A stretch of 64,000 nucleotides of DNA. Source: [Clostridium] celerecrescens 18A. GTDB lineage: Bacteria; Bacillota; Clostridia; Lachnospirales; Lachnospiraceae. The stretch covers positions 2,914,001 to 2,978,000 of the forward strand of contig NZ_PGET01000001.1 of NCBI RefSeq assembly GCF_002797975.1. Reading direction: 5' to 3'. Each line of letters starts with the position of its first letter. Within the stretch, counting starts at the first letter, position 1. The position numbers and the translations under genes are program-made. This document shows positions 2,857 to 30,978 of this stretch, one piece after another. A model generated the notes under the pieces. That model did not search any database and had not been told where the DNA came from. It worked only from the letters and a program-made list of their open reading frames with translations.

Positions 2857-2886
2857 CTATTTCTCCAATGACTTCATCGTCGGGAA
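2857..2886 (-). pseudogene. displaced 3' end of lysS (last nine codons and stop)
   Basis: Read on the minus strand this encodes FPTMKSLEK followed by TAG, exactly the C-terminus of the intact LysS encoded at 29473-30978. The final codons differ synonymously from the intact gene (TTG GAG AAA TAG here; CTT GAG AAG TAA there), and similarity stops at the inner edge. This is the scar expected when an element integrates into the 3' end of lysS and supplies a replacement end. I infer that this copy is the original chromosomal terminus, pushed 26.6 kb away. Confidence 0.85.
2869..2886. repeat. left attachment site (att core), 18-bp direct repeat
   Basis: TGACTTCATCGTCGGGAA is repeated perfectly in the same orientation at 29485-29502 inside the end of lysS. 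The two copies bracket all the mobility and defence genes. The truncated tyrosine recombinase lies 150 bp inside this end, as is usual for the int side of integrative elements. Confidence 0.85.
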
Positions 2887-3002
2887 GATTAAAACATGAA
2901 AAACATATGTCTGCATATATCTTCATATCTTAATTTTCAAAACCAACGCACTTATACGTCAATTTATAACTCTTCATACATCTTCGTACAAGCATGTTCA
3001 CA

Positions 3003-3034
3003 TTGGTACAAAATTGGTAAAGAATTGGTACATG
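3003..3034. repeat. three 11-bp-spaced direct repeats, candidate integrase arm sites (left)
   Basis: TTGGTACAAA, TTGGTAAAGA and TTGGTACATG begin at 3003, 3014 and 3025, one helical turn apart, just after the recombinase stop. The same motif occurs twice at the other end of the element (29388 and 29399). Arm-type sites bound by the N-terminal domain of tyrosine integrases have this layout. The assignment is inferred from position and pattern. Confidence 0.65.
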
Positions 3035-3038
3035 GTTC

Positions 3039-3305
3039 CTATTCGTCATCATTCTTTAACCCAGCCACTTCATTCCGCATCAGTTTATCTTCCAAACTAC
3101 TAAATTCTTTCTTTTTCAATGCAGTTGTTACATCAGCGTATATATTTAAAGTAGTCTGGACATCTTTATGTCCCAAAGCATCCTGAATAAACTTCAGATT
3201 AACATTGTTCTCTATAAGGCGTGTCGTAAATGTATGGCGAAGTGAATGACAGCTGAATCTTGGCAGCAAAACAGGATTTATTCTTAGCCAACTACTATCA
3301 GCCAA
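3039..3305 (-). pseudogene. tyrosine recombinase (integrase), C-terminal remnant
   Basis: The frame encodes 88 residues with the final catalytic box of phage-type integrases: HSLRHTFTTR (His-x-x-Arg), then LGHKD and the nucleophile region TLNIYADV. A full-length protein is about 380-400 residues, so the arm-binding domain, the core-binding domain and the first catalytic Arg are missing. The only start is a TTG at 3305, with an in-frame stop immediately upstream, so this is a truncation and not a small gene. It sits next to the left att core and was presumably the element's own integrase. Confidence 0.85.
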
Positions 3306-3592
3306 AGTTTATTGTCGATCAAATTTTATAATCCTCAAGCTTTATTCTCTCTCGAAGATCAGATCGCATTAAAGTTGCAACGCTTTTATGTGAAGACATT
3401 TACAAAAAAATCGTAAGCACATAGTTGGTTCTCTCCAGGCTTTGTTGAAATGACAACCTATAAGCTGTTTTTGACTTAACAGTAACAAACATTTTATCAA
3501 ATCAACCAATCTTGAGAAAATCTTACAACTATTTTTAAAATTACATGAAATAAGCTCCTAACTTTAAATATCTTTCTTACAATATATATTTA
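3306..3592. other. intergenic region, junction of truncated integrase
   Basis: No intact gene. A minus-strand fragment (SSHKSVATLMRSDLRERI, then a stop) at about 3330-3405 reads like coding sequence but cannot be assigned. It probably marks the deletion that removed the N-terminal part of the integrase. Confidence 0.35.
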
Positions 3593-5230
3593 TTAAATCT
3601 GCAAAGTCTTATGCACCATACTACATCGTTTTTTATCATGCGCTAGTCCAATGCAAATAACTTCCCCCTTTAATCCTGTATAATATTGGTTCTCAATAAT
3701 CTGCTCTAACGCCTCCTCTTTCAGACGTTCCAGATCTTCCCCTTGCTTAAATTCAATAATTACATGGCTGCGAGCATTCATTAATGCTTCCAGGGTGATA
3801 TCGCTTCTTCCATATCCAGCCTCTATATTACTTGTTACTTTATAAGCTCCTCTAAGTGCAATGCACATCCCTAAAAACAGCATATGATATGCATTTTCCT
3901 TTGCATCCATATAACTGGTACAGGATATTACAATATCCTGATACAATTCAAAAAACCGTTTCATATCTTTATTAATCAGACAAGAAAGCATTTGTTGCAA
4001 GTCCAGTCCGTCAACACCTGATATTTCTGCGATCAATACTTGAAATTCTGACATCACTTCATCATTAGGTATTTTCACCACCGCCGTATTGGAATCAATC
4101 CGTTTCAAGGCTGTCAGATAGCCAGAGTTTACCAGAAGGCCCCACAAACTATAATTACTATCTCTTTCTATATATGAAGTTTCCAATGTAAGCCATACAG
4201 AAATTTCTTTCCCAGATGCCAATTTATCAAAGTCATCCCAAAATCGCTTATCTGCTGTCCGTAGTGCTTGTTTCACCAAAAAGTTAGAGGACGTATTAAT
4301 CCAATAGTTATCCAAAGAACCTATATCAGCGTAATTTAAAACAGACCATGGATTATATATTTCTATGCCTCCAAAGCGGTAACCATAATACTTAATTTGT
4401 ACATTTTCGTCCAATACCAGATCATAATCAGTTAAAAGTTTTTCTGTCTCCGGAGCAGTAAGTCCAAAATAAGAGGCATATTGTTTGTGCATCACCGTAT
4501 ACACTCTGGCATTGTTAAACTGTGAAAATATACTTTCCTTAGCAACTCGCTGTACCCCCGTGATAAGAGCCTGACCCAGTGCAGAATTTCCCTTCATCGC
4601 ACTTCCATAAAGATTAGCGAAAAAAGGTCCCAGCTGGTCATGATATCCGTATTCGTAGCTACTCATAATTGGCTGATCATATTCATCTATCAGAAGGATT
4701 GGACGAATATGATAAAAATCATAAACAACCCTGGTTAAATCCAGCAACACACTTGATAGATAGATATGAGTAGATTTCTGATCCATTAACAAATCGTAGG
4801 ATTCATAAAATTTCTTTGCACTAAAAGAATTTTTGTTTAGTTTATCTCTGAATTTTTCTTCATAGTAACCATATTGCTCCTGCATGGCCAGTTTTAATTG
4901 AGCAGTCAATTCTTCTACTGAGGTACCTTTAGAATTCTTAAATGTAAAATAAATAACAGGTCTTGAGTTAATCTGGTCCGCATATTCCGTATCCATAATT
5001 GCCAAGCCATCAAAAATATCCCTGCTCTCTGTTTCAATATCAAAAAACTCCTTGAGCATTGTCATATTTAATGTCTTTCCGAATCTCCTGGGACGGGCGA
5101 TCAATGCCACTTCATCCTTCATCTCAATAAAATCCTTTATCATTAAGGTTTTATCCACGTAATAAGAGCCATTTTCACGTAATTTTCGGAAATCATCATT
5201 TCCTATCGGTAAGATTCTTTTTACCCCCAT
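3593..5230 (-). CDS. AAA-ATPase-like / PD-(D/E)XK nuclease domain protein (DUF1703 type)
   Basis: This 545-residue protein belongs to the family with an N-terminal AAA-ATPase_like domain and a C-terminal PD-(D/E)XK nuclease-like domain. The Walker A variant is ARPRRFGKTLNM (about residues 45-56) and the Walker B is LLIDEYDQP (about 180). The C-terminal GRSDI followed by VIIEFKQG (about 475-500) matches the D...ExK core of the nuclease fold. These genes are abundant in Bacteroidetes and Clostridia, are often found on mobile DNA, and have no established role; nucleic-acid cleavage coupled to ATP hydrolysis is an inference. The length is normal and no frameshift is seen. The start ATG at 5230 has AAGGAT upstream. 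It is transcribed alone. Confidence 0.85.
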   Translation of the reverse strand: MGVKRILPIGNDDFRKLRENGSYYVDKTLMIKDFIEMKDEVALIARPRRFGKTLNMTMLKEFFDIETESRDIFDGLAIMDTEYADQINSRPVIYFTFKNSKGTSVEELTAQLKLAMQEQYGYYEEKFRDKLNKNSFSAKKFYESYDLLMDQKSTHIYLSSVLLDLTRVVYDFYHIRPILLIDEYDQPIMSSYEYGYHDQLGPFFANLYGSAMKGNSALGQALITGVQRVAKESIFSQFNNARVYTVMHKQYASYFGLTAPETEKLLTDYDLVLDENVQIKYYGYRFGGIEIYNPWSVLNYADIGSLDNYWINTSSNFLVKQALRTADKRFWDDFDKLASGKEISVWLTLETSYIERDSNYSLWGLLVNSGYLTALKRIDSNTAVVKIPNDEVMSEFQVLIAEISGVDGLDLQQMLSCLINKDMKRFFELYQDIVISCTSYMDAKENAYHMLFLGMCIALRGAYKVTSNIEAGYGRSDITLEALMNARSHVIIEFKQGEDLERLKEEALEQIIENQYYTGLKGEVICIGLAHDKKRCSMVHKTLQI

Positions 5231-5510
5231 GCCTTCTATCCTTTCTAAAATATTTGCAGTACATCTTATCCTAATAATATCATATTCCTATCAGTCTTAC
5301 CAGTCCAGGTTCCATTGTTATACCGATTATACTATTTCATCAGTTCGTAGTGCTCACGTCAAATTATAATTAGCAGGATATTTTTCATTTAATACCTTAT
5401 TATAATATACAATTCTCCACGTGAACACTTACAATAATTGTAATGGTATATTAATGTTGTAACACTCCTGCCTAATGAGTTAGAATATTCATTAGAAAAG
5501 GAGTAACACA
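5231..5510. other. intergenic region between ATPase gene and IS3 relic
   Basis: AT-rich, with no gene seen. The plus-strand ribosome binding site (AAAGGAG) of the IS3 orfA relic lies at 5496-5502. The IS3 terminal inverted repeats could not be identified with confidence. Confidence 0.4.
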
Positions 5511-6300
5511 ATGACACAGTTTTCAGATGCTACACGCAAAAAAATCGTAAAGCAGCATATCCAATGAAGGACTCTTGCAAGTCTTGCTGCAGAATATGGC
5601 GTATCCAAAGCCTCAATTTCGAATTGGGTACGTGCATACCGTGAAGAATGACAAACAGATGATGATGCCAAATCCCAGTTAGAATTAATGGAAGAAGTTC
5701 GAAAGCTTCGCCAGGAAAAGACTGAACTTGAAAAGGAAAACAACTTCTTAAAAAAAGCAGCGGCATTCTTCGCTAAGGAAAAAGCACCTTTATTACATTC
5801 CTCGTCGTAAAAAGCCGAACTATAAAAAAGGAACTCCTAATAAGCTTCTTCCTAATATTCTGAATCAGAATTTCGTCGTCAATGAGCCAAATCGCGTCTG
5901 GTGCACAGACTTTTCATATCTTTATCTTACAAACGGAAATGTCCGCTACAACTGCACAATCATAGACCTTTATGACAGAAGCGTTGTTGCGAGTGAAAAT
6001 GGTAAATTCATAACCAGCGATTTTGCGCTAAGTACGCTTGATAAGGCTATCCATGCTCAGCACTGCGATGCTTCACAACTGATCCTTCACTCAGATAAGG
6101 GGGTTCAATTCACATCTACTGATTTCACGAGTTTCTGTGAGTTGCGGGGTATTACGCAAAGTATGAGTCGTGCCGGAACCCCATATGATAATGCTCCGAT
6201 GGAACGTTATTACAATACTTTGAAAGCTGAGCTGATTTATCAGTACAACTTTCGGACGGATAAGGATCTTGATGATGCAGTTAATAAGTTTGTGTACTAA
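5511..6300 (+). pseudogene. IS3-family transposase relic (orfA plus 3' part of orfB)
   Basis: orfA starts at ATG 5511 and shows the HTH (LASLAAEYGVSKASISNWV) and leucine-zipper stretch (EEVRKLRQEKTELEKEN), but has in-frame TGA codons at 5565 and 5649 and ends at 5810. orfB continues in the +1 frame from about 5791 to 6300 with DDE integrase motifs: first Asp in WCTDFSYLYL, second in LHSDKGVQF, Glu in PMERYYNTLK. About 100 N-terminal residues of orfB are missing, so an internal deletion joined the two frames. The element is dead. A further IS3-type C-terminal scrap lies at 18022-18167. Confidence 0.9.
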
Positions 6301-6380
6301 CGGACAATATCCCGATGTACTTTTTATTGTAATTCTTACTATTTATTTCTAATCAGAACCCGGATTTACTAAAAAAGCCA

Positions 6381-6411
6381 CTTGTGGTCACGATGACCAC
6401 AAGTGACCTAA
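6381..6411 (-). repeat. 31-bp inverted repeat copy 1, itself palindromic; also terminator of the DUF6508-like gene
   Basis: On the minus strand this matches 6846-6876 base for base. Each copy contains the hairpin CTTGTGGTCA-TCG-TGACCACAAG. Copy 1 lies just after the stop codon of the DUF6508-like gene and is followed on the minus strand by a T-rich run, so here it can act as a Rho-independent terminator. Confidence 0.75.
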
Positions 6412-6414
6412 CCA

Positions 6415-6825
6415 CTACTTTTCATCAATTCCCTTTAGTCTTTGAAGCCATCTCAGCATTGCTCCACTCTTCAAAAAGCCAAGAAAAGCACCTTCACAGA
6501 ATCGGTCAGCTCGTAATGCACCAACTAATAATGCCATAACAGCTCTTCCATCAAGCCCTCTTACATCTGCTTTCTCCATTGACTCTGTTCCCCACTCAAG
6601 CCCATTCTGTTCTAGTATTTCACCATACTTAGTTAATTCCATCTCAGAATGTGAATCTACAAAGTCATAAATAGCCCGTTCTAAATCAATAACCGTCCTT
6701 TCGTAACCCACAAAAGGCATCTGTATTGGATCATCTTCTGTACCCTTATGCTCTGTATCAACATGCCATTTACCGTATTCTGAACGATCTAATTTAGTAA
6801 TATACTCAGTTAATGCTTCATACAT
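6415..6825 (-). CDS. DUF6508-like protein
   Basis: 136 residues from the ATG at 6825, which has GAGGTG upstream. A longer in-frame start at 6873 would run through a palindromic repeat and is unlikely. Conserved-looking blocks are PIQMPFVGYERTV, MELTKYGEILEQNGLEWG and ALLVGALRADRFCEGAFLGF. The pattern resembles DUF6508, a small soluble family of unknown function in Clostridia; that match is from memory. It ends KGIDEK at 6415. It is enclosed by two 31-bp inverted repeats and follows the McrBC-HNH genes in the same direction after a gap. Confidence 0.6.
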   Translation of the reverse strand: MYEALTEYITKLDRSEYGKWHVDTEHKGTEDDPIQMPFVGYERTVIDLERAIYDFVDSHSEMELTKYGEILEQNGLEWGTESMEKADVRGLDGRAVMALLVGALRADRFCEGAFLGFLKSGAMLRWLQRLKGIDEK

Positions 6826-6845
6826 TCTTTTCACCTCACACCATC

Positions 6846-6876
6846 TTAGGTCACTTGTGGTCATCGTGACCACAAG
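6846..6876 (+). repeat. 31-bp inverted repeat copy 2, upstream of the DUF6508-like gene
   Basis: Identical in inverse orientation to 6381-6411. It lies 21 bp before the start codon at 6825, where a regulator site or a transcript leader hairpin would be expected. Confidence 0.7.
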
Positions 6877-6884
6877 CTATTACA

Positions 6885-7058
6885 TTAAGTCATCTCCATA
6901 CCGCTAAATGCTCTTTTAAGCATCATTTGACCATGATATCCCCCTGACATATCATGACATCCTACAACCAAAGAGTAGTTTTTTTCCATGATGTCAAAAA
7001 TATTATTCATTTCAAATGCATCATGTTTTTCGAAGTTAAGTAAATTGAATATGAACTT
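6885..7058 (-). pseudogene. in-frame continuation of the HNH gene after an ochre stop
   Basis: After the TAA at 7059-7061 the same frame stays open for 57 codons to a TAA at 6885. It reads as plausible protein (FIFNLLNFEKHDAFEMNN and SLVVGCHDMSGGYHGQ). An internal ATG at 7010 would give 41 residues but lacks a ribosome binding site. I read it as the original C-terminal part of the HNH protein cut off by a nonsense mutation. A small separate gene is the alternative. Confidence 0.5.
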
Positions 7059-7688
7059 TTAATCAGATAACTCGAATACTAGCATCTTACCATCCATATT
7101 CCAGTCAATCTTACCTGTTTGAATATCTTTAAATCCCATTGGATCTGTAGAATAATCACGCTTTACAAAGTAAAGCCGCCATTCTCCGTTGTATTTCTTA
7201 GCATCTGGATCTCTCAGAAAATCTAAAAAATCAAACTTTATTCCTTGTGTCTCAGGTATCGATAAAAACTTAGCGTATAATGCCTTTACAATTTGAAGCT
7301 TCGTCTGCTCTTGAAAACCCTTTATCTTCTTTGGATTACCATCTTCATCAAAGAATTTTTTATATGCCTCGTCATATTTGCCAAAAAACGTATTACATTT
7401 CCGACATAATGTACGTGCAGTTCTTCCTTTTGGATACAAATCTTCCGCTAGACTATTATCAAAGTATTCTTCCGCTGTACTTTGCAAATTCTCTCCATTC
7501 CTAATCGCATTTCCAATCTTTCTATTTAATTCTTTGTTTTCACCCATGAAATCATCTGCGAGCTTAATAAAATCTAACTGAATAATATCATCATTTCCAA
7601 CACTATGAGCAGGATAATGCTCTTCACTCATATCCAGATCATCGAAAAACTGCTCGCACAGTCTACATTGTACTTTCTGTTCACTCAA
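7059..7688 (-). CDS. HNH-type nuclease-like protein of the McrBC cluster
   Basis: The protein has 209 residues. Zinc-finger HNH features are CRLC near the N-terminus (residues 8-11), SEEHYPAHSVG (about 21-31, the EH..P..S.G signature of the HNH_5-like group) and LCRKCNTFFGKYDEAY (about 93-108), which together form a Cys4 site around a beta-beta-alpha metal fold. It is predicted to nick or cleave nucleic acid. It lies 24 bp after mcrC in the same direction, so it is probably co-transcribed and may be an extra nuclease of the McrBC locus. Its frame continues in sensible protein beyond the TAA stop, so it may be truncated. Confidence 0.7.
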   Translation of the reverse strand: MSEQKVQCRLCEQFFDDLDMSEEHYPAHSVGNDDIIQLDFIKLADDFMGENKELNRKIGNAIRNGENLQSTAEEYFDNSLAEDLYPKGRTARTLCRKCNTFFGKYDEAYKKFFDEDGNPKKIKGFQEQTKLQIVKALYAKFLSIPETQGIKFDFLDFLRDPDAKKYNGEWRLYFVKRDYSTDPMGFKDIQTGKIDWNMDGKMLVFELSD

Positions 7689-7712
7689 GCTTATTTCCCC
7701 CTTTAACTAGTA

Positions 7713-9038
7713 CTACAATGATGAACTAAAAGTCCTTTCACTAATCTTTATTTGTTCTACAAAGTCATTATAATTTGCGCAGTCACTCGGTATTTTTAAG
7801 CCATGCTTAGTAATACTAATGTCTTCTCTGGCTAATACATTCTTTTCGTATGTAGAACCCGAATTGAGCATCAAAAGAAAATCACCAGACTCCTTTGCAT
7901 CTGGATATAGGTAATATGCCTTCTTTGCATCGAATCTGAACATATATGCTAGCACCTGAAGATAATCCTTATTTCCTATATTATCTATTGGCTTATACTT
8001 AGCATCTGCAATGATTCTGTTTTCTGAATCTCTTCCGATAAAATCCGGATAGATCAAACCAATTCCACCAGCAAATAAGCGTTGAGCACCTGCTCCAGCT
8101 TTATTCATTGGATGATAGAAGATATCTCCAATAAGCGTATTAACATACTCTTCCCAAAGCCAAGCTCCATCAAAGAGAATGCCATATACTTTTCGATTAA
8201 CGAATCCAAACTGATGCTTCTGATTCTGTAAGATTAAAATACATAATCTTTGAAGATCTCTATACTCATGATAATATGCATGCCTAAGCGTTTTCTTTTT
8301 ATTTGCTTCAATAATTGATCTTATATCGGCAACATGATATTCCGGTGTCGAGTCTACTATCAGTTTAACCTCATCTTTTGCTGTATTAAGCAGCTTATAA
8401 CCATAAGGTTTGCACTTTATAAACTCGATTGTATGACGAATGAGCTCCATCAAATAATTATCAAATGAATATTCTCTCTGACTATAAGCTATATTCCCCA
8501 CAAACGGAATATTCTTTTTAATATGCCTTGCCACATCGATTGTTCCTCTTACATTCCCATCATTATATTCATTACGGATATAAGTCTTATATGCTCCTTT
8601 GCGCGCAGCACTCTTGAGGTAATGTGGGAAGAGGAATAACAGCAAGTTAAACATTCTGTCGTCCTGATTAGCATTAGTATTTAAGTTAATAAAGTTGGGA
8701 AAATCCAGCACTTTTTCTAATAGATACTGAAAGAAATAATCATTCTCACCCAAGCTAAATCTGGACTCGATTACGAGACGTTCATCACCTGAGCCAAGGA
8801 ATCCCATGACATTTCCAGAGCAATACATATCATTATAGCTTTGAAGAATCATCTGATCCTTTGTTATATCCTCTGCTTCTTTAATTATATCAGGAAATAC
8901 AAAAATGCCCTCTCGCTCAAGCTGTTCTAATGTTTTATCTGCAACTCGATCTACTACGGATTTAACTTCAAAGAACTCTTCTTTTAATTTATATTGATTA
9001 TCCTTAATTTTCAGTTGCTTCATCTGCATCACCTTCAC
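7713..9038 (-). CDS. mcrC: McrC-family 5-methylcytosine restriction nuclease subunit
   Basis: The 441-residue protein is the nuclease partner of McrB. The PD-(D/E)XK core is YPDFIGR (about residue 329) followed by IADAKYKPI (about 340). Upstream segments (RNEYNDGNVRGTIDVARHI, then QREYSFDNYLMELIRHTI) are typical of McrC. McrC binds the McrB hexamer, stimulates its GTPase and cuts DNA between distant modified sites. The start overlaps the 3' end of mcrB by 35 bp; ATGs at 9038, 9026 and 9020 are possible. Operon order is mcrB-mcrC-HNH gene. Confidence 0.9.
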   Translation of the reverse strand: MKVMQMKQLKIKDNQYKLKEEFFEVKSVVDRVADKTLEQLEREGIFVFPDIIKEAEDITKDQMILQSYNDMYCSGNVMGFLGSGDERLVIESRFSLGENDYFFQYLLEKVLDFPNFINLNTNANQDDRMFNLLLFLFPHYLKSAARKGAYKTYIRNEYNDGNVRGTIDVARHIKKNIPFVGNIAYSQREYSFDNYLMELIRHTIEFIKCKPYGYKLLNTAKDEVKLIVDSTPEYHVADIRSIIEANKKKTLRHAYYHEYRDLQRLCILILQNQKHQFGFVNRKVYGILFDGAWLWEEYVNTLIGDIFYHPMNKAGAGAQRLFAGGIGLIYPDFIGRDSENRIIADAKYKPIDNIGNKDYLQVLAYMFRFDAKKAYYLYPDAKESGDFLLMLNSGSTYEKNVLAREDISITKHGLKIPSDCANYNDFVEQIKISERTFSSSL

Positions 9039-11082
9039 CTAAAGCTTGATATCCATATGCTCTGGCAAATCTCTTCATGATGCCCTCTTCGTCGTATAAT
9101 CCACGAACATAATCTTGTAATAACGGATGCAGGTAGTCAGTCCAAAGATCATCAAAGCTTAATGTCTTTAATTTAAGGAAATATGAAGCACCAATCTGAT
9201 AGTTCTCATTCAAGTCATCTACCTTAAGAATCTCTGCATTCAGCTTATCCATTCTATTAACAGCATCATTCTTAAGTTCTTCATTCTCTAATGATTCCAG
9301 CATGTCCTGCGTATCATCTGCTTTGATTTCAATAAATCTAAATCTTCTACGCATTGCGAAGTCAAAGCTATCCACAGATCTATCAATATCGTTCATTGTT
9401 CCAATAATATATACATTCTCTGGGATATAGAACTTCTCATCAGGATTTGCATGCATATTTGAATACTGTGTAGCAACCTCACCTGATTTACCACGATAAC
9501 CAGGATCGATTGAGAAGAATAATTCTCCAAAAATCTTTGAAATCTCACCACGGTTAATCTCATCGATAATGAAGATATATTTTTTCAACTCTTCCGGTGC
9601 AACAGAAGCTTTTATCCCATCTGATCCAGCCTCTTTAATTGCCTTAAAAAGTGCAAAGTCATATGAATAAGACTGAGTTGCAAACTGCTTTCCAAAAAAG
9701 TTTGTGATATCACTGACCTTATTAAACTCCATGCCTGATTCTAGCATCTTACGAACTTCAGCAATATTCAAACTAAGCTTGTCAGCTGTTTCATTACCTG
9801 GAATTGAAATGTAAATATGTTTATCATCTACATTTGTAATAGAGAACTTACTTCCCTTAATTGTCTGATACTCATTGTCTCCATATTCAATATTGGCAAA
9901 GAAATTAGCCATAATGGTTTTTGCAGAAACCTCTTGTTCTCTGATTTCTTTTGACTTCTGAGAATCCTCAAAGTTGCTTCTTGCTTTATCAACAAAGCTC
10001 TTAAAGATACCATCTTGTAATTCAAATCCCATGCTTCCATCTTCATTCATCTTTGGACGAAGACCTTCCACAAAATCCGAATAGTCATAGCTTGGATGAA
10101 ATTGAACAAATTCAACCTGTCTTCTCTGTTCGTCAGTTAAATCAGCATACTGATTGGTGTACCCATTACTAATAATATCTGCAGCAATTTGCTTGGCAAG
10201 ATAAGACTTTCCTGTACCAGGAGCTCCTCTGAAGATGATATTCTTCGATTCTAATAACAGTTTAGAATAAGGATTCTTACACTCTTGTGAAGATTTTTTC
10301 TCTTCTGCTTCTACAGCCTTTGCTACAGTATTTTCAGTCTTGGTCTTATCTCTATAAACCAAAATGAACTTATCTCCTGTATTTCCGAATCGTTTTAAGC
10401 ACTCCTGAACAAAGATAAGTGTTGAAAATACATTCCAAGAGTAGATAATAAACTTAGGACCATTTTCTCTCCAGTATGTTAAAAACTCCATAGAATTTTT
10501 GTACTGTTTATACGCTTCTTCACTTGGGAATATTCCACGAACATAATCCTGGTTAGGATTATACTTACATACAGGGAACTCCTTTTTATCTAAATCAGAC
10601 AAAGACACAATCTGCTTTTCATAAATCTGGAAAGCCAATCTTGGTAAAGACTGATTTGATATTCTATTTTCACTTTTATTTCTTTTTCTTCGAATAGTCT
10701 CTTTATTTGCGGATATAAAATAAGCATCTATTGGCTCATAGTTATCTCCCAAGCCAAGATCATCAATAATAAATCTATTATCTGTTGAAACAATAGACTC
10801 AGCTGTGATCGTAAGCTCAAACTTCTCCTGTTTAATTTCAATTTTATATCCACGTGCCTCAAAGTATCCCTTTGCTTCAACTGCATTATATCCGTCAGTT
10901 GCTATTTCTACTCCGTTTTCAATATGATCTGCCACTGCAATTACATATTTTGGAGGATACTTTTTTCCGTCTTCTGTTACGAACACATACTGTGTACTTT
11001 TATTTTTGTCAGGTACACCATTCTCATCAATGAACTTAAGTGCCTCAATTATATTTTTCTCATCAAATTTTGGAATAGCCAT
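9004..11082 (-). CDS. mcrB: McrB-family AAA+ GTPase with unusual N-terminal sensor region
   Basis: 692 residues. The C-terminal AAA+ module has Walker A GAPGTGKSYLAK (about 285), Walker B FIIDEINRGEISK (about 510) and the McrB-type sensor GTMNDIDRSVDSFD then MRRRF (about 555-575), the signature of the GTP-specific McrB motor. Residues 1-85 resemble the small N-terminal head domain of ScoMcrA-like proteins. Residues about 90-245 (including PRLAFQIYEKQIVSL and FIIYSWNVFSTLIFVQECL) are not a domain I recognise; they occupy the position of the modified-DNA reader. With McrC it would restrict DNA carrying modified bases. The start ATG at 11082 is preceded by AAAGGAGG. Confidence 0.9.
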   Translation of the reverse strand: MAIPKFDEKNIIEALKFIDENGVPDKNKSTQYVFVTEDGKKYPPKYVIAVADHIENGVEIATDGYNAVEAKGYFEARGYKIEIKQEKFELTITAESIVSTDNRFIIDDLGLGDNYEPIDAYFISANKETIRRKRNKSENRISNQSLPRLAFQIYEKQIVSLSDLDKKEFPVCKYNPNQDYVRGIFPSEEAYKQYKNSMEFLTYWRENGPKFIIYSWNVFSTLIFVQECLKRFGNTGDKFILVYRDKTKTENTVAKAVEAEEKKSSQECKNPYSKLLLESKNIIFRGAPGTGKSYLAKQIAADIISNGYTNQYADLTDEQRRQVEFVQFHPSYDYSDFVEGLRPKMNEDGSMGFELQDGIFKSFVDKARSNFEDSQKSKEIREQEVSAKTIMANFFANIEYGDNEYQTIKGSKFSITNVDDKHIYISIPGNETADKLSLNIAEVRKMLESGMEFNKVSDITNFFGKQFATQSYSYDFALFKAIKEAGSDGIKASVAPEELKKYIFIIDEINRGEISKIFGELFFSIDPGYRGKSGEVATQYSNMHANPDEKFYIPENVYIIGTMNDIDRSVDSFDFAMRRRFRFIEIKADDTQDMLESLENEELKNDAVNRMDKLNAEILKVDDLNENYQIGASYFLKLKTLSFDDLWTDYLHPLLQDYVRGLYDEEGIMKRFARAYGYQALGEGDADEATEN

Positions 11083-23140: not shown

Positions 23141-23162
23141 ATATAACTCCTTCCGGCTCAAA

Positions 23163-24605
23163 TCAAAGTACCAGGAAAAAACCGCTACCAATCCAAAGAC
23201 CCACTGCCATCAGAACCTTAACCCATGTTTTCTGTTTTCTGAATAATAAAGGACAAAATAAGGCTGATACCACGAGAAATGCAACGCCCACTGGTATGGA
23301 TACTGTAAAAGTGCCAATTGCGGCCAACACAAACAAAATGCTCATACTCCATAAAACCATCAGTTTAATAAAATGCAAAAGCCTCTTTGTTAAGCTGAGT
23401 ACCGCTCCTGTCTCATTCTTTCCTGTGCTTACAGATCTTGTTATAGTGGTGGCATTAACAGAATCATTTTCCTGTTTGTACGGAATCATTTTCTGCAAAG
23501 AAACATCTTCTGGGATTTGCTCCAGCCTTTGTTGCTCAATCGAGATCTTGTTAACAGATTCATTCGCCCCAGTCAGTACCGTCTCAGCATTTAAATCCAG
23601 GTCACCCTGCTGTGTCAAAATTGGTGCCGACAAGACTGAATATAGTACCTGAGCCATAAGCCATGATATATGTAATACTTGTTGCTGACGCATACTCAAT
23701 TTTCTAAAATCAATTTTGACTTTCAGGCAAAAAAATCTTTTAATACGATTTCCTAAATAGGTCTCCTGTACAACATAAGCTTGATGTTGGACTTCCTTTA
23801 ATTGGCTCAGCACCGGTGCATACATACTCCTGAATTCGCATATAAATCCTTCGTGATTACTTGCTATCGCTGAAACACTGGTCATAAAATCTGTCATGAT
23901 ATTTATCTTTTCTGCTGCATTCTTCGCTTCTGAATGTGTTTTTTGTGCATTAGCCAAATTTTCTTCTGACTTAGCCGCCATAATAAACCCGGCTACTGCC
24001 AAAACCGGTCCCGCAACAATTCCTCCTAGCACCATAGAACCTCCGGCCATCCCTAAGCCTCCAGCTGCCAGAGAGCCTCCGCCAAACCAAGCCATCGTAG
24101 CATTTGTCGCCGCAATACCGGACAGTGAAGCAATTGCTGTTCCAGTAGACGCAGAGGCGAACATCATAGCACCGCCGTAAGATGCAATACCTGCAAGTGC
24201 GCCTGCTCCCAGAGAACCAATACCTGCTCTCATAACCTCTGATGCCTTTAAAGAAGCTGTTTTCATGTTCTTAAGACTTTGAGGATTCGCTATCTGCATC
24301 TTAAGTTTCTCATTTAATTCCACATTTCCTTGCAAAGAAACGTTTTTAAATGTTTTAAAAAGCTGAATAAAAGAACCTATTTCACCTGACCAAGCTTCCA
24401 GTTTTACACGTCCAAGAGAATCCAGGTTTCCTGTCGTTTCTATACGCTGATAATCTAATCGCTCTTTTGCTTCATCATAAATCCTCTGTGCTTCATTTAC
24501 TAAATCTTTCGCTTTCGAATTATTCGAAATTGCTTCTCCTCCTTTAATAATTCCAGCGGCTCCAGCAGCAACTGCTAGTCCGGCTAATATAAATGGTACT
24601 GGCAT
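23163..24605 (-). CDS. glycine-zipper membrane-associated protein
   Basis: 480 residues. The N-terminal hydrophobic segment FILAGLAVAAGAAGIIKGG is followed by a coiled coil (EAQRIYDEAKERLDYQRIE). A long Gly/Ala zipper spans about 128-212 (GIGSLGAGALAGIASYGGAM, GGGSLAAGGLGMAGGSMVLG). A second helical region precedes two C-terminal membrane hairpins (about 415-480; MVLWSMSILFVLAAIGTFTV). Similar uncharacterised gly-zipper proteins are scattered in bacteria. Such zippers oligomerise in membranes, so pore formation is a reasonable hypothesis, not a demonstrated function. It starts at 24605 immediately after the YkgJ-like stop. Confidence 0.75.
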   Translation of the reverse strand: MPVPFILAGLAVAAGAAGIIKGGEAISNNSKAKDLVNEAQRIYDEAKERLDYQRIETTGNLDSLGRVKLEAWSGEIGSFIQLFKTFKNVSLQGNVELNEKLKMQIANPQSLKNMKTASLKASEVMRAGIGSLGAGALAGIASYGGAMMFASASTGTAIASLSGIAATNATMAWFGGGSLAAGGLGMAGGSMVLGGIVAGPVLAVAGFIMAAKSEENLANAQKTHSEAKNAAEKINIMTDFMTSVSAIASNHEGFICEFRSMYAPVLSQLKEVQHQAYVVQETYLGNRIKRFFCLKVKIDFRKLSMRQQQVLHISWLMAQVLYSVLSAPILTQQGDLDLNAETVLTGANESVNKISIEQQRLEQIPEDVSLQKMIPYKQENDSVNATTITRSVSTGKNETGAVLSLTKRLLHFIKLMVLWSMSILFVLAAIGTFTVSIPVGVAFLVVSALFCPLLFRKQKTWVKVLMAVGLWIGSGFFLVL

Positions 24606-24863
24606 TTAATTTTCCTCCTTAAGTATTTTACAGGCATCGTAGTTTAACGACAAATATTCCTCATACGTCATTTCATTCTGAAAGAATATATATGTGTCTT
24701 TGATATTACACAAAATAGGTCTCTTTTCATATATCTTACATAAATGCGTCCTGCAATCATAATAAATACAAGTTCCCGTACCATCATCCAAGTCCGCATA
24801 AAGCAACGATTTTTTCAGATTTCTACAACATTTTCCACATTTATCACAGACAAACTCGTTCAT
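24606..24863 (-). CDS. YkgJ-type cysteine-cluster protein
   Basis: 85 residues with the Cys pattern of the YkgJ family: CDKCGKCCRN at residues 6-15, then CIYYDCRTHLCKIYEKRPIL with a final Cys. The family binds Zn or an Fe-S cluster and has no settled function. It is short but looks complete, with an ATG at 24863. It is the second gene of the WYL-YkgJ-membrane-protein operon, directly abutting the gly-zipper gene, so it could act as a redox or metal sensor or a maturation factor for the partner proteins; this role is speculative. Confidence 0.8.
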   Translation of the reverse strand: MNEFVCDKCGKCCRNLKKSLLYADLDDGTGTCIYYDCRTHLCKIYEKRPILCNIKDTYIFFQNEMTYEEYLSLNYDACKILKEEN

Positions 24864-24905
24864 CCATATAATCTCCCTATACTTTATCTCATTATAGCCT
24901 GAATT

Positions 24906-25927
24906 CTATTTATATCGTGAGATCATTCCCGTTAATGTTGTTATTATTTGCTCTCTCATGCTCACAGGCTTAAGAAGCTCAACCGCCTCCCCTTGACTTA
25001 AAAGCCACATCACTACACCTTTCCCGTATACCTCTGCTTCAATGGTGTACTCTCCATCAACTTGTTTTATAATTTGTGCGGTAGGCAGTCGGTCAAGAAC
25101 TGCTTCCGGCGATTTTCCCATATATTTAAACTGAATCTTAATCAATTCTCCCGGATACATGAACTGTACCCGTTTGCGGAATTCTCCTTCTTGAAACCTG
25201 TCACTATACGGTATCTTAAATTTCACATCCATAATTTGATAAAATTGAATCCGGTCAATACGAAACACTGCCGGATATTGATGTATCTGCTGAATAATGC
25301 CACTTTCTTCATCTAATCTGACAATATTGGCAATCAGATAAAAATAATATTCGGAAAACATAATAGCCAATGGTTCTATCATTCGTTCCACTAAACCATT
25401 ATCTTCCGCCTGTTTACGATATGAAATTTTCATTAAACTACTGCTTTTGATTGCTGTACCAATATTCCAGATTTTGTCTTGAATAAAAGATATACTGGAT
25501 AATTCTACATAATGAAATTGTTCGTTTGCTATTAAAGCCTCGACCATCTTCCTATTTTTGTATGATACACACTTTGCAACTACCTTATCCAGTATTGATA
25601 CAATCTCTTTCTTAGTAAATGCCCTGCTCTCTAAAAGAATCATAGTGATTGCAAGAATTTCACCATTATTTAGAAATTTATCTTCATTACCTGTCATTAA
25701 AAAACCCTTTTGGGATCGGATATATTCCACTCCTCTGACATCTGCTATCCCCAAAGTTGCCTGTTCAGCTAAAAACGCTCGAATATCGTCAATGTCCCTC
25801 TGGATTGAGCGTTCGTCTACCTCATACTTATCGGCTTCATCTCGTTTATTAATGATCTTGCCCTGGCATAATCTTACATAAATTCCCAGTATTCTATGAT
25901 TTTTAGTTTTTTTTTACTGTTGACCAT
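24906..25927 (-). pseudogene. WYL-domain transcriptional regulator with an A9-tract frameshift near its start
   Basis: The well-placed ATG at 25927 (AGGAGC upstream) reads into a run of nine A (25907-25915) and then a stop at 25874-25876 (MVNSKKKLKIIEYWEFM). With one extra A the frame joins the long open frame and gives an HTH (RILGIYVRLCQGKIINKRDE, then RSIQRDIDDIRAFL) followed by a WYL domain (MKISYRKQAEDNGLVERMIE, VFRIDRIQF) and the C-terminal extension. The downstream TTG at 25754 would give only the 282-residue part without the HTH. WYL proteins sense ligands such as nucleic acids and often repress defence operons. It leads the operon of YkgJ-like and gly-zipper genes. It is a phase-variable or slippage-expressed gene, a mutant, or a sequence error. 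Confidence 0.75.
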
Positions 25928-25968
25928 TCTTGCTCCTATATTCTTTTTAAAAAATTATACTACTTTTT

Positions 25969-25987
25969 CATGACATTTTTTGTCATG
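25969..25987. promoter_or_regulatory. inverted repeat upstream of the WYL operon, candidate operator
   Basis: CATGACA-TTTTT-TGTCATG forms a perfect 7-bp inverted repeat 42 bp upstream of the WYL start codon. It may be the autoregulatory site of the WYL protein; nothing else supports it. Confidence 0.45.
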
Positions 25988-26112
25988 GTGGTAGAAAAAA
26001 CAGAATAAGTTATGCCCATATCTTAGCATTCTTTTAATATATTAACAAGAATATTCCTTTCATAACTAACATCATTTTACCATGATTCGGTTTATTTGTT
26101 ATAATTATTTTC

Positions 26113-26141
26113 TTGACTGAATTTAGTTGCTGTGTTAACAT
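26113..26141 (+). promoter_or_regulatory. candidate promoter of the XRE regulator
   Basis: TTGACT (26113-26118), a 17-bp spacer, then TAACAT (26136-26141). The spacer contains TGAATTTAG, which recurs in the inverted repeat at 21467-21505, so the regulator could bind its own promoter. Confidence 0.4.
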
Positions 26142-26164
26142 TCTGTATAAAGGCGGTGATCAAT

Positions 26165-26524
26165 TTGAATTTAAGCGAACGAATCAAACTGATACTAGAA
26201 GAAAACCAGTTAAAGCAAAAAGAACTGGCTAAGGAACTGGGGGTTACTGAGAGTTATATTTCTGCAATCATAAACAGTAGAAACTACAACATATCTCAAG
26301 CCCTCGCTACGTTGATTGAAGAGAAATATGGCTATAGCACTTCCTGGATCTTAGAAGGAACAGAACCCAAATTAAAGGTCATAGGAAAAAATAGGACCTT
26401 ATCTGACATTCATAAAAAGGCAATCCTGCAAATAGAAAAGTTGACACCAGAGCAAATTAAGGCTGTGTTGGCCTTCGTAAAATCTCTGGAAGAAGTAGAA
26501 AACGATTTAAAGGGCAGACAGTAA
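26165..26524 (+). CDS. XRE-family HTH regulator
   Basis: 119 residues from TTG at 26165, which is 5 bp after an AGGCGGTGA site; an upstream GTG at 26132 lacks one. HTH at residues 2-45 (IKLILEENQLKQKELAKELG, VTESYISAIINSRNYN). The C-terminal helix (LTPEQIKAVLAFVKSLEEVE) resembles the dimerisation tail of Clostridia phage- and ICE-type repressors. It is divergent from the WYL operon and may control the element or that operon. Confidence 0.8.
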   Translation: MNLSERIKLILEENQLKQKELAKELGVTESYISAIINSRNYNISQALATLIEEKYGYSTSWILEGTEPKLKVIGKNRTLSDIHKKAILQIEKLTPEQIKAVLAFVKSLEEVENDLKGRQ

Positions 26525-26729
26525 ATAGCAGGTACATGATTATGATATATAACTATTGTTATTAAGATTGGCAATTAGTAAATTATGAAACTGCAGAAAA
26601 AAAGGGGGGGACATATAAGCAATACTCCAATTAGGCGATTTACCAATATCTTAATTGTTTCGCTCTCTAAAAAACGATTATTGATAAATTGTAAATAATT
26701 CTTTATTGGAGGATTTGCTTTATGACAAA

Positions 26730-27491
26730 ATGAATTCTAAAGAAAAAAAGAATTTGGTATTGAAAGAGGTTGTAAAACCTTTATTGAAAAAAGCTGGGTA
26801 TCGTAGTTCTGGAAAAGTCTATTACTCTCAACGAGGAGACTGTTGCCTTGCCCTTTGCATAAAAGGATCACATTGGAATTCAGTGGTTACAGGTTACAGC
26901 TTCTATTTTGAAATTATGGCCTTTGAAGGAGCGGTGACAGAGGACATAAAAAAGGGATATTGGATCACACAAATTATGGAGTACACTCTGCTACCGGATT
27001 GGGGATATCTTCATCCATACCGTGACCGCATTGGTTACAAGATTGATGGATTCAAAAACTACCAGCCTCAGGACATGCAGCTTGAAGACATTAAATCACG
27101 GATACAGGACGATATGGAGCGTTATATCATCCCAGAACTGGCTCAGGTTGAAAATTTTTCCGACTGGGAACGCAAACAGAAGGAATGGATTCAGCGAGGC
27201 AGTTCAGAAAGGATTCGTTTACTTCGTTATTTTACGATGGCTCATTCCCTTGCTGCTACCTCAGGAAACCTTCCCCATTTCCTCGGTGCTCGGCGACAGT
27301 TGGAACTTCCAATTGAAACAATTCGGAATAATTCGGTTCTGTACCACCAGATACAAGAAACCTCCCCATGGCCAGAAAAGGACGACTGGAACTTTATTAT
27401 TTCCGTTCTGGACGCAGAAGAAACAGCTTTAGCTCAAGTGACAGAAGAACAGCTTAATTCTCAAATAGACTGTGAATCTTGGTTTTGTTAA
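26730..27491 (+). CDS. DUF4304-type hypothetical protein
   Basis: 253 residues from ATG 26730. The N-terminal 120 residues (VVKPLLKKAGYRSSGKVYYS, CCLALCIKGSHWNSVVTG) match the DUF4304 pattern of unknown function. The C-terminal half is helical (LRYFTMAHSLAATSGNLPH). A strong GGAGG site (26708-26712) is placed for an ATG at 26722 that encodes only Met-Thr-Lys before a TGA overlapping the gene's ATG (ATGA). Either a start-proximal base was lost or expression relies on reinitiation. It lies between the XRE regulator and the mobilisation genes. Confidence 0.7.
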   Translation: MNSKEKKNLVLKEVVKPLLKKAGYRSSGKVYYSQRGDCCLALCIKGSHWNSVVTGYSFYFEIMAFEGAVTEDIKKGYWITQIMEYTLLPDWGYLHPYRDRIGYKIDGFKNYQPQDMQLEDIKSRIQDDMERYIIPELAQVENFSDWERKQKEWIQRGSSERIRLLRYFTMAHSLAATSGNLPHFLGARRQLELPIETIRNNSVLYHQIQETSPWPEKDDWNFIISVLDAEETALAQVTEEQLNSQIDCESWFC

Positions 27492-27784
27492 TATATTTAG
27501 TAACATTAAGTGACTAGTATACAGTCTATACCAACTCAGTATACAAGGTTAGGAGAAAAGAAAAATCGTAGAATTTTAAGGTCCTACGATAAATCTTAAA
27601 AACAGGAAAAAGCTTTACTGATACACGCCATAAATAAGCTATCCTTTTCCAAATCTATATACAAGTGGTATTACTGCTCAGCTATGAACCGGTACAACTG
27701 TTGAGGCACTCACCAGTGCCATCTAAATAATATATAATTGATCTTTGTCATAATTACCCATTGAAACTATCTGACTTAATACCT
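27492..27784. other. intergenic, nothing recognised
   Basis: AT-rich gap downstream of the DUF4304 gene. No gene, and no clear hairpin terminator immediately after the stop, was seen. Confidence 0.3.
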
Positions 27785-27867
27785 CATAAAAGAAACCTAA
27801 GCAGACTTTCTCCGCTCCGTAGCGCCTTCATGGCGCCTACGCTTCGGCTGCTTAGATTTCCTTTATG
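27785..27867. repeat. large 20-bp-stem hairpin downstream of the relaxase gene
   Basis: CATAAAAGAAACCTAAGCAG (27785-27804) pairs with 27848-27867 with two wobble positions. The intervening loop contains a second GC-rich stem (TAGCGCC/GGCGCCTA). It could be a terminator of the mobilisation operon or an end of a lost insertion. Confidence 0.6.
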
Positions 27868-27886
27868 ATTTAACAAACGACTCATT

Positions 27887-28426
27887 CTACTTCTTATAGA
27901 CATTCCACTTAGCGTTTGGCATGATTTCTTTTGCAGCATTACCGAGATCATAATAATTTCCTCGACGATCATAAAATCTATTTCCGTCCACATAGCTAAT
28001 TGTGTTAATTATAAAATGCACATGAAGATAATATTTGCTATAATCACTCCCCTGATGAACACCATATATTACTTGAAATCTCTGCCCTATGTAATTAGCA
28101 AACCGTTCTGCAAAGATATAAGCCAACGTCGGATTCATAATATCTTTGCATTCAAATCCTACTACAATATGAACCACCTGCTGACCATCCAATTTGTTAT
28201 ATGCCGTTTTTACAGCTCGAAACGAATCTGCTAAATACTTTATATTACTGTCTATTTCATTTACACCCAATACTTTATCAGTTTGGCATTGTCTTAAGGA
28301 TGGATACCATAATAAGCCTACTGCTCCGGAATACTGATAATATTCAGAACCAAATACATAATTAATTGTATCATAAATTGCATCTTCATTCTGATAATCT
28401 TGGTTTACTATGATAATATTCGCCAT
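27887..28426 (-). CDS. small relaxase (mobilisation nuclease, MOB family)
   Basis: 179 residues. The metal-binding motif YYLHVHFIINTISYVDG at about 134-150 contains the HxH...N pattern of relaxases, and AYIFAERFANYIGQRFQV precedes it. Relaxases nick oriT and remain attached to the 5' end through a tyrosine. At this length only the nicking domain is present, without the helicase or other C-terminal parts. It overlaps the ribbon-helix-helix gene by 19 bp and lies beside an oriT-like inverted repeat, so these form the mobilisation module of the element. Confidence 0.8.
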   Translation of the reverse strand: MANIIIVNQDYQNEDAIYDTINYVFGSEYYQYSGAVGLLWYPSLRQCQTDKVLGVNEIDSNIKYLADSFRAVKTAYNKLDGQQVVHIVVGFECKDIMNPTLAYIFAERFANYIGQRFQVIYGVHQGSDYSKYYLHVHFIINTISYVDGNRFYDRRGNYYDLGNAAKEIMPNAKWNVYKK

Positions 28427-28689
28427 GATGAACGTACCTCCTCTTTTAATTTCATGACATCTTCATCTTCTGGATAATTTTCTCCTAGGTGATTTATACA
28501 TGTAGATATCTTACTTATTGCACATATTAGCTCTTTTTGATTTAATACAACATTATTATCCTTTAAGTCATTTTCAATCAGAGTATTTAAATATTCTGAT
28601 TGCGTCATATTTAATTTCTCCAGTTTCTCCTTCAGATTTATATATCTATCTTGGGGACAGCGTATAGTTATCTTCTTTGTTATTTCCAT
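28408..28689 (-). CDS. ribbon-helix-helix mobilisation accessory protein (MobC-like)
   Basis: 93 residues. The N-terminal strand ITKKITIRCPQDRYINLK is followed by helices (KLNMTQSEYLNTLIENDL), the form of RHH relaxosome proteins. The ATG at 28689 has AGGAGG upstream. It overlaps the relaxase start, so the pair is translated together. It would bind oriT, which here is presumed to lie just upstream. Confidence 0.75.
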   Translation of the reverse strand: MEITKKITIRCPQDRYINLKEKLEKLNMTQSEYLNTLIENDLKDNNVVLNQKELICAISKISTCINHLGENYPEDEDVMKLKEEVRSSWRILS

Positions 28690-28786
28690 TTTTTCCTCCT
28701 GTTACTTTAAATTATTACATTCATTGGTTACATATCAATTATTCATAATTCTATTACTTTTGTATCTCTGGGATACATACTCTGGC

Positions 28787-28826
28787 AAGCAAAGGAAAAC
28801 TGTCGGACAGTCTATTATCTTTGCTT
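28787..28826. other. oriT-like nested inverted repeat
   Basis: The outer arms AAGCAAAG (28787-28794) and CTTTGCTT (28819-28826) enclose a perfect inner palindrome ACTGTC-G-GACAGT (28799-28811). It lies about 100 bp upstream of the RHH and relaxase genes, the usual place for oriT. The nick site cannot be read. Confidence 0.5.
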
Positions 28827-28959
28827 ACAAATATGTTATGCCGTATTTAAAATAAAATAGCAGTATCTAAAATCATGTAACCTTTATTAGCATTTTTACA
28901 TATTAGAATACGAACATCTTATATAATAATTATCAAATAAACTTGAAAGGAAAAAAATA

Positions 28960-29145
28960 ATGCTTAATGACTATGGAGATATCCTAACACTAAACGAGCT
29001 TTGTGAAGTTTTAAAAATCAGTGAGAATGTTGCATATCGGCTAATTAGAGAAAAATCCATATCTGCTTTTAAAGTTGGCCGAATTTACAAGATTCCCAAA
29101 AAAGCTGTGGAATCTTATATTTTGGTGGCAGCAAATATGAAGTAG
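28960..29145 (+). CDS. excisionase-family HTH protein
   Basis: 61 residues with an MerR/excisionase-type HTH (LTLNELCEVLKISENVAYRL) and a wing (FKVGRIYKIPKKAVESYI). The ATG at 28960 has AAAGGAAA upstream. Such proteins bend the arm region to direct excision by a tyrosine recombinase. It sits at the end of the element opposite the integrase remnant. Confidence 0.8.
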   Translation: MLNDYGDILTLNELCEVLKISENVAYRLIREKSISAFKVGRIYKIPKKAVESYILVAANMK

Positions 29146-29174
29146 TGTAATCAATCTATATTTTCACCATAATA

Positions 29175-29209
29175 AAACCCTGGTAGAATTGTATCCTCTA
29201 CCAGGGTTT
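29175..29209 (+). terminator. terminator after the excisionase-like gene
   Basis: Arms AAACCCTGGTAGA / TCTACCAGGGTTT are perfect, with a T-rich tail on the plus strand. Confidence 0.85.
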
Positions 29210-29311
29210 CATTTCTTTGTGAATTTTTAAGTTCAGCTTATTCACTGCATTTCTATCTTTGCACCTCTTTATTCTACATCAAAAAGATAACCCCTATATG
29301 ACAAAAAAAAT

Positions 29312-29360
29312 AATGCAAGAGCTATTATACTAAACAATGTCGTATAATAACTCTTGCATT
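29312..29360. repeat. 19-bp-stem hairpin near the right end of the element
   Basis: AATGCAAGAGCTATTATAC (29312-29330) pairs with 29342-29360 with one mismatch. It may terminate transcription from lysS or the element, or be a recombinase accessory structure. Confidence 0.6.
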
Positions 29361-29387
29361 TACTAAGTTACATTAATTCTGTTCTAG

Positions 29388-29408
29388 TTGGTACAAAATT
29401 GGTACAAA
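29388..29408. repeat. two 11-bp-spaced direct repeats, candidate integrase arm sites (right)
   Basis: TTGGTACAAA occurs at 29388 and 29399, matching the three copies at 3003-3034. It lies about 80 bp inside the right att core. Confidence 0.65.
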
Positions 29409-29472
29409 AGTACAAATAACCAAATAACCCTCTTGCTTAAAAGCCTTGATTTTACTAGCTTTCCGCAATCTA

Positions 29473-30978
29473 TTACTTCTCAAGTGACTTCATCGTCGGG
29501 AACAGCAACACATCCCTGATCGCATAAGAATCCGTAAGCAGCATAACAAACCTGTCAATACCAATCCCAATTCCGCCAGTAGGAGGCATACCAATCATGA
29601 GTGCATTTACAAAATCATCATCCATGGAGTTAGCTTCATCATCTCCCGCTGCAAGAAGTGCCTCCTGAGCCTTAAAACGCTCGATCTGATCCAGAGGATC
29701 ATTTAACTCAGAGTAAGCATTTGCCATCTCACGCTTTGTAATGAACAGCTCAAAACGCTCCGTATAATCGGGATCATCAGGTTTTTTCTTGGTAAGAGGA
29801 GAAATCTCTACCGGATGGTCCATAATAAAGGTCGGCTGTACCAGATGCTCTTCAACAAATTCCTCAAAAAGCATGCTTAAGATATCGCCCTTCTTATGGT
29901 GTGCCCCATACTCCACATGATACTGGTCTGCGAGAGCCTTTGCTTCCTCATCCGTATGAATGGTGGTAAAATCAATATCCTTGTATTTCTTTAAAGCATC
30001 TACCATGGTAATGCGTTCAAATGGCTTTGATAAGTCAATTTCCACACCATCATAGTTCACCACAGCAGTTCCAAGAACCTTAAGGGCAACTGACCGGAAT
30101 AAATCCTCTACCAGATCCATCATGCCGTGGTAATCGGTATAAGCCTGATATAATTCCATTAAAGTAAACTCTGGGTTATGGCGGGTATCCACGCCTTCAT
30201 TACGGAAAACGCGTCCGATTTCATAAACTCTTTCCAAACCGCCTACGATCAGTCTCTTTAAGTAAAGCTCCAGAGAAATACGCAGCTTTACATCCTCATC
30301 AAGAGCATTGTAGTGAGTTTCAAACGGTCTTGCCGCAGCGCCGCCTGCATTCGCAACCAGCATAGGTGTCTCCACTTCCATGAAGCCCTGGGCATCTAAA
30401 TGGTCACGGATGGACTTGATGATTTGGGAACGTTTTACAAACGTATCCCTTACTTCAGGGTTCATGATCAGATCCACATATCTCTGTCTATAACGAATGT
30501 CCGTATTGGTCAGACCGTGGAACTTCTCCGGAAGAATCTGAAGACTCTTGGTAAGCAGAAGAACGCTCTCAGCATGGATGGAAACTTCTCCCGTCTTTGT
30601 TGTAAACGCACTTCCCTTAATGCCTACGATATCACCGATATCCAGCTTCTTGAATTCCTTGTATTCCTCTTCTCCGATACTGTCTCTGGCCACATAGGAC
30701 TGAATATTGCCCTTTAAATCCTGTACATTACAGAAGGAAGCTTTCCCCATCACGCGCTTTGACATGAGACGTCCTGCGATGGATACTTCCTTTCCTTCCC
30801 ATACCTCATAATGTTCCTTGATTTCACTGCTGTGTACGTTAACATCGTACTTTGTAACTTTAAACGGATCCTTTCCCGATTCCTGAAGCTCTGCCAGCTT
30901 TTCCCGGCGAACCTTCAGTAAATGGTTTAAGTCCTCTTCCATATTCTGATTCTGGTTTTGATTCTGCTGTTCTGCCAC
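29473..30978 (-). CDS. lysS: lysyl-tRNA synthetase, class II
   Basis: 501 residues. It charges tRNA-Lys with lysine in the cytoplasm. An N-terminal OB-fold anticodon-binding domain (about 60-165) is followed by the class II core: motif 1 near MEVETPMLV (about 200), motif 2 [17 protein letters not shown] (about 255-272) and motif 3 [12 protein letters not shown] (about 475). The extreme 3' end was supplied by the integrated element, which restores the same amino acids. The start ATG at 30978 has an AAAGGAGTGC site. The operon partner greA lies upstream. Confidence 0.97.
29485..29502. repeat. right attachment site (att core) within lysS
   Basis: The same 18 bases as 2869-2886. It lies in the last codons of lysS; the bases to its left supply the terminal Ser-Leu-Glu-Lys and stop of the functional gene. 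Confidence 0.85.

Follow-up and report, generated by a model that had tools for sequence, protein, structure and literature searches.

The window, by which we mean the whole 64-kb stretch of DNA analysed, comes from a 5.27-Mb single-contig genome (positions 2914001-2978000) and carries a 26.6-kb block between the 3' end of lysS and chromosomal genes that also lie downstream of lysS in the relatives G008 and G014. Both ends of the block carry the exact direct repeat TGACTTCATCGTCGGGAA. The features at the two ends are as follows.

1-2089, minus strand: outer chromosomal flank with a LysM-GH18 gene and a methyltransferase gene
2754-2799, minus strand: hairpin/terminator of the native lysS flank (z = -9.31), found 3' of lysS in G008 and G009
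2857-2868, minus strand: displaced native lysS end, TTG GAG AAA TAG (G006 and G014 have a similar tail at their outer cores)
2869-2886, minus strand: outer att core, 18 bp (repeat, codons, shuffle test; the G014 match ends inside the core)
3002-3036, no strand: three arm-type-like repeats ATTGGTA(C/A)A, one varied, at the outer end
29312-29360, minus strand: hairpin with a T-run after it, within the element and 3' of lysS (z = -6.36)
29387-29410, no strand: two arm-type-like repeats TTGGTACAAAA at the lysS-side end
29485-29502, minus strand: lysS-side att core, 18 bp (repeat, codons, shuffle test)
29473-30978, minus strand: lysS, the target gene (PF00152, PF01336), its last codons (29473-29484) lying on the element side of the core

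A search for TGACTTCATCGTCGGGAA with up to three mismatches found no further site in the 64-kb window; in shuffled sequence the same search gave a mean of 0.04 matches, and two matches occurred in 0 of 100 shuffles. The 40-bp contexts around the two 18-mers are 83% alike. On the lysS strand, the right copy reads TTC CCG ACG ATG AAG TCA CTT GAG AAG TAA and the left copy TTC CCG ACG ATG AAG TCA TTG GAG AAA TAG; both are in the lysS frame and encode nine identical residues, with differences in the last three codons and the stop. Exact matching and the shuffles thus confirm the perfect repeat recorded in a first-pass annotation, and the codons bear out its reading of the left copy as the end of LysS in different synonymous codons. 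Repeats of the form ATTGGTACAA, absent from the first-pass annotation, lie directly inside both cores. The native hairpin was left with the outer flank, now 26 kb from lysS, and insertion swapped the last codons of lysS and apparently, beyond the codons, its terminator. The hairpin inside the element was not among the results of a consensus terminator scan.

Genes and remnants within the block are listed below; A1 and A2 denote two elements of relative G014 that are described further on.

3039-3305, minus strand: C-terminal tyrosine integrase stub, an 88-aa ORF (79 aa align with the 453-aa A1 integrase of G014 at 87% identity)
3593-5309, minus strand: AAA-ATPase_like/PDDEXK_9 unit (gene 3593-5230; Pfam)
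7059-11082, minus strand: McrBC-like set (McrB-like AAA 9004-11082, McrC 7713-9038, weak HNH-like 7059-7688)
13493-14089, minus strand: Mutator-family transposase fragment (PF00872, positions 68-215 of 379)
15454-17319, minus strand: DNA cytosine-5 methyltransferase, adjoining a gene without family match (14290-15450)
18285-19013, minus strand: qatD (equivalog match)
19007-20365, minus strand: qatC (equivalog match)
20371-20445, minus strand: qatB remnant, last ~24 codons
20433-20446, no strand: junction of A1-like and A2 sequence
20438-21142, minus strand: A1-type gene truncated at about codon 233, 5' part only (G014 copy, 671 aa)
21662-24605, minus strand: gene pair; the second gene (23163-24605) has a match to candidate defence family PDC-M09A
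24906-25754, minus strand: WYL-domain regulator (48% to the G014 WYL regulator)
27887-28426, minus strand: short MobA/VirD2-type relaxase, 179 aa (PF03432; equal length in G014)
28408-28689, minus strand: MobC/NikA-like mobilisation protein (PF21983, below its cut-off)
28960-29145, plus strand: HTH_17 protein, probable excisionase, 61 aa (PF12728; 98% identical in G014 A1)

Several of these units have features of their own. The AAA-ATPase_like/PDDEXK_9 unit is also found downstream of lysS in G003 and G017 (87% over 1,717 bp), and G015 and G004 retain only its end pieces, as if it moved or decayed as a block. At 6381-6876, a DUF6508 gene lies between the arms of a perfect 31-bp inverted repeat and overlaps the right arm, an arrangement like that of a small transposable unit. 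The transposase fragment sits between the methyltransferase pair and the McrBC-like set and is shorter in G014 (134 aa), while the gene at 14290-15450 is perhaps the restriction partner of the cytosine-5 methyltransferase. A perfect 22-bp inverted repeat with a 10-nt loop (21576-21629), terminator-like, lies downstream of the PDC-M09A gene pair. A prophage was dropped as a candidate, with no phage structural family in the 22 element ORFs searched against Pfam and no match for 6772-20445 in a phage collection; a plasmid origin was likewise dropped, with one 47-bp match out of 13,674 bases in a plasmid collection.

The empty state of the locus is found in G008, where lysS (95.95% identical to the window lysS over 1,679 bp) ends at the core and is directly joined to the flank found left of 2869 in the window. 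This is the uninterrupted join that the first-pass annotation had expected in a relative lacking the element. The hairpin of the window's native flank lies ~155 to 205 bp past lysS in G008; the window's left flank is recognizable from ~265 bp on, and the GH18 gene comes after another 11.6 kb of other DNA, past the methyltransferase gene. With SKDV in place of SLEK as its LysS tail, G008 does not preserve the ancestral site unchanged. A lone TTTGACACC motif following this tail may be the scar of an older element, and the G008 assembly breaks lysS into two frames.

In comparison, G014 carries a tandem of A1 (24 kb) and A2 (18 kb) downstream of lysS, followed by a 4-kb remnant. Positions refer to the stretches downstream of lysS after joining.

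1592 to ~25938: A1, with a probable excisionase, a MobC-like gene, a relaxase and a 453-aa integrase at the far end
~25938 to 44339: A2, with QatA, QatB, QatC, QatD, a methyltransferase pair, an McrBC-like set and an integrase stub
44339 up to a degenerate core near 48294: the 4-kb remnant

The 453-aa A1 integrase is complete and of the Tn916 type, with Integrase_DNA (PF02920), SAM-like and catalytic domains, and the A2 stub is identical to the stub in the window. The core between A1 and A2 is degenerate (5/15 mismatches) and by eye reads LPMMKSLDR-stop. Immediately ahead of the A1 integrase (L124:3517-4557) stand a HerA/TrwB-like ATPase gene and two genes that match no family; the three may form a transfer or defence module. 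At their left ends, the elements in the window and G014 are identical for 80 bp up to the core, sharing TTCCC(G/T)ACGATGAAG before diverging, and outside the outer core the window has the native flank versus a further 4-kb segment in G014. Because identity stops at the core and the flanks beyond it differ, the core is, to judge from the alignment, the recombination edge. The comparisons with G008 and G014 support the first-pass proposal of a tyrosine-recombinase element at the lysS 3' end that supplied new terminal codons.

Aligned with G014, the block divides into two parts. Its left ~15 kb matches A2 at 99.5% (1,212 bp) and 99.6% (13,675 bp), interrupted by 2.7 kb (4083-6772) that G014 lacks, and at 20433-20446 the match switches from A2 to A1. 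The order at the join is the A1-type gene (cut at ~codon 233), the last ~24 codons of qatB, and intact qatC and qatD. From 27682 on, the right end of the block is A1-like (~94 to 95.5%). The intervening 21316-27682 shares a single piece with G014 DNA (213 bp at 69%), and because of this near absence of a match, the A1 parent of the window is, on sequence comparison, a different element from G014 A1. Missing relative to the G014 tandem are ~19.5 kb that hold the integrase gene, the internal core, qatA, and most of qatB. The two sides overlap at the join by only 2 bp (by eye), which suggests that the join arose by illegitimate deletion rather than site-specific recombination.

The first-pass annotation had described one integrated element. 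A single intact element is not supported, since the integrase is reduced to the 88-residue ORF, the Qat operon is cut, and G014 indicates the fusion of two tandem elements. We consider it likely that two integrative elements inserted successively at a 13- to 18-bp site at the lysS 3' end and that the 26.6-kb block is what remains after their collapse. By comparison, this reading rests on the bounds set by the lysS core, the uninterrupted site in G008, the left 15 kb equal to A2, and the A1-like right end; against it stand the SKDV tail and split lysS of G008, the degenerate internal core of G014, and the unmatched 21316-27682. A Tn916-type tyrosine integrase would have recombined the core copy of an element with the lysS end, giving lysS new last codons and a new terminator. 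A2 would then have decayed to a CIME, with its att sites kept and no integrase, before the lysS-side att site took up an A1-like element. Finally, the A1-like element and A2 may have been fused by an illegitimate deletion on the order of 20 kb.

Other histories of the block were weighed against this collapse of a tandem. The repeat could in principle be due to chance or to local duplication, unrelated to recombination, but no observation favoured this, the shuffles (mean, 0.04 matches) led us to drop chance, lysS-like cores recur at further ends in G004, G006, G012, and G014, and the empty site is seen in G008; the comparison with G008 and G014 refutes this explanation, to which we assign a negligible probability. 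A single element, inserted once, could also have lost its integrase to later decay and acquired its likeness to A1 and A2 by module exchange, with no tandem ever formed here. Such exchange is common between integrative elements, according to excerpts of PMC5704250, and the block has only two cores, with no internal core scoring above shuffled sequence. A scan for a degenerate core inside the block found none at threshold, the outcome to be expected after deletion of the internal att site; the scan was gapless and also missed the degenerate G014 cores near 25938 and 48294, so that its result is weak evidence. However, the join cuts two genes at once, leaving 24 qatB codons, and G014 has both parent types adjacent at the same lysS site, so that a single insertion appears quite improbable.

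Read in this way, the block is an integrase-less, CIME-like fusion, probably immobile alone. Both outer att sites are kept, and the integration genes are lost except for the probable excisionase gene; a complete integrase gene is present in G014 A1 and absent from the block, where the 88-aa ORF is the only trace. As for transfer genes, which a CIME would lack, the 179-aa relaxase and MobC-like genes remain, and in place of the integrase that an IME would carry along with its relaxase there is only the stub. Since the outer att sites, the probable excisionase, and the short relaxase are kept and the integrase is lost, movement of the fusion would require an integrase of the same specificity in trans. 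An integrase encoded elsewhere in the genome might already do so: both 18-bp cores, the arm-type-like repeats, and the probable excisionase are retained, and PF00589 matches occur at 11 other places in the genome. In the window's own genome, however, a search at an E value of 1e-60 found no relative of the G014 A1 integrase (5 of 21 candidates scored), and we regard such continuing mobility as unlikely.

Identity between the two species is higher for A2 (99.5 to 99.6% over 1.2 and 13.7 kb) than for lysS (96.3%) or for flank blocks longer than 600 bp (92 to 96%), with shorter pieces near the core at 80 to 93%. Because A2 exceeds flank and lysS in identity and its stub is identical in both, we infer that A2 was transferred recently between the species without an integrase of its own. 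In a simple scenario, an A1-type integrase would act on the outer sites and an A1-A2 composite would be transferred; CIME-ICE tandems have been reported to transfer (excerpts of PMC5704250).

The join also cuts the Qat operon. The qatABCD set is complete in G014, and the window retains qatC and qatD with the qatB remnant; qatA has no match in the window's own genome, and the same QatA query finds itself in the G014 stretch by another program. The QatC and QatD equivalogs and the MGTS at the start of G014 QatB agree with the qatABCD system described in excerpts of PMC13279940, whereas the window lacks qatA and holds only the last ~24 codons of qatB. In that source, the QatB-QatC complex is the minimal requirement and the MGTS motif is essential in QatB. 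Since QatB and QatC are the reported minimal unit and the window is without most of qatB, Qat is probably inactive here.

Across the genus, lysS was read in 23 genomes, namely, the window genome (G000) and all of the 24 same-genus genomes but G005 and G011, which lacked a useful lysS match (22 genomes), over downstream stretches of ~7 to 78 kb, so that further cores may lie beyond. Eleven kinds of residues follow FPTMK or FPTLK in the 23 genomes. Close arm-type direct repeats lie within ~230 bp of the core in 13 of 23 (reached in at most 3 of 60 shuffles), with ~1 genome expected by chance. A second lysS-like core with at most two mismatches is present in five (G000, G004, G006, G012, and G014), a G023 match at 25781 having been dropped for its unrelated frame, and relatives of known integrases occur in the stretches read from five (the G000 stub, G006, G012, G014, and G020). 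PF00589 matches were found in 22/22 same-genus genomes, among the matches listed. Considering these tails, arm-type repeats, second cores, and integrase relatives, many elements appear to use the lysS site in the genus, and part of the tail diversity may be ordinary divergence. In G006, two lysS-like cores 9.5 kb apart (C2:66284 and C2:75837; L130) share the same flank and have integrase relatives before each; the pair is a second tandem at the lysS site, with G006 lysS itself at the start of contig C1.

Relatives of the 453-aa integrase at an E value of 1e-60 or better were found in 30 of 295 genomes of the order. At five of 30 loci examined (L176, L183, L184, L185, and L188), a core with at most two mismatches lies 150 to 265 bp downstream of the integrase match, in the frame FPTMK, IPTMK, or VPTMK; L174 has three mismatches. 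The other 24 loci, including those of the two closest relatives (L172 and L173), showed no such core, and core matches in L179, L189, and L198 were set aside because their position or frame did not fit. With 24 of 30 loci lacking the core, either lysS specificity does not extend to the whole integrase family or some sites have diverged too far or fall outside the contigs. It is possible, though we propose it tentatively, that the lysS 3' end in this genus serves as a hotspot with heavy traffic, where an essential enzyme has its terminal residues and its terminator rewritten by one element after another, with the integrase-less A2 defence cargo spreading between species by means of a neighbour's integrase.

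The lysS 3' end has already been published as an insertion target, as excerpts of PMC4701971, PMC8301612, and PMC10765050 report. The vanD islands of Enterococcus (Tn6711-Tn6713 and ICEVREfm_vanD) are likewise inserted there, and their 13-bp repeat, TTCCC(g/a/c)AC(a/g)ATGA, corresponds to the first 13 bases of the window's 18-bp repeat on the lysS strand (PMC8301612 and PMC10765050, in the same excerpts). Those islands span 112 to 143 kb and carry vanD and an integrase gene, whereas the window block has 26.6 kb, a stub, and defence genes; the likeness drawn here is one of insertion site and repeat. Streptococcal ICEs at lysS share the tyrosine integrase and the lysS 3' end, with direct repeats of 13 or 17 bp; in contrast to these elements, which have conjugation genes (PMC4701971), the window showed none in 22 element ORFs searched except the short relaxase and MobC-like genes. 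As in the CIME and tandem accretion described in excerpts of PMC5704250, att sites are kept, integration genes are lost, and a neighbour stands at the gene-side att site; unlike in those cases, the tandem of the window collapsed by a deletion across the boundary and the relaxase gene was kept. Insertions at lysS in Lacrimispora, which the host of the window presumably resembles, are not mentioned in the titles or abstract openings of the literature searched.

CIME accretion and lysS insertion are thus already known, and the block is a new, degraded example with an informative three-state comparison. With the locus empty in G008, in tandem in G014, and fused in the window, accretion and decay can be read base by base, and the comparison also shows a defence operon cut in the process. 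Until it has been tested, an orphan qatCD pair of this kind should not be taken for a functional defence system. The lysS site used by vanD elements, for which Clostridiales have been suggested as the source, is also used in the host of the window.
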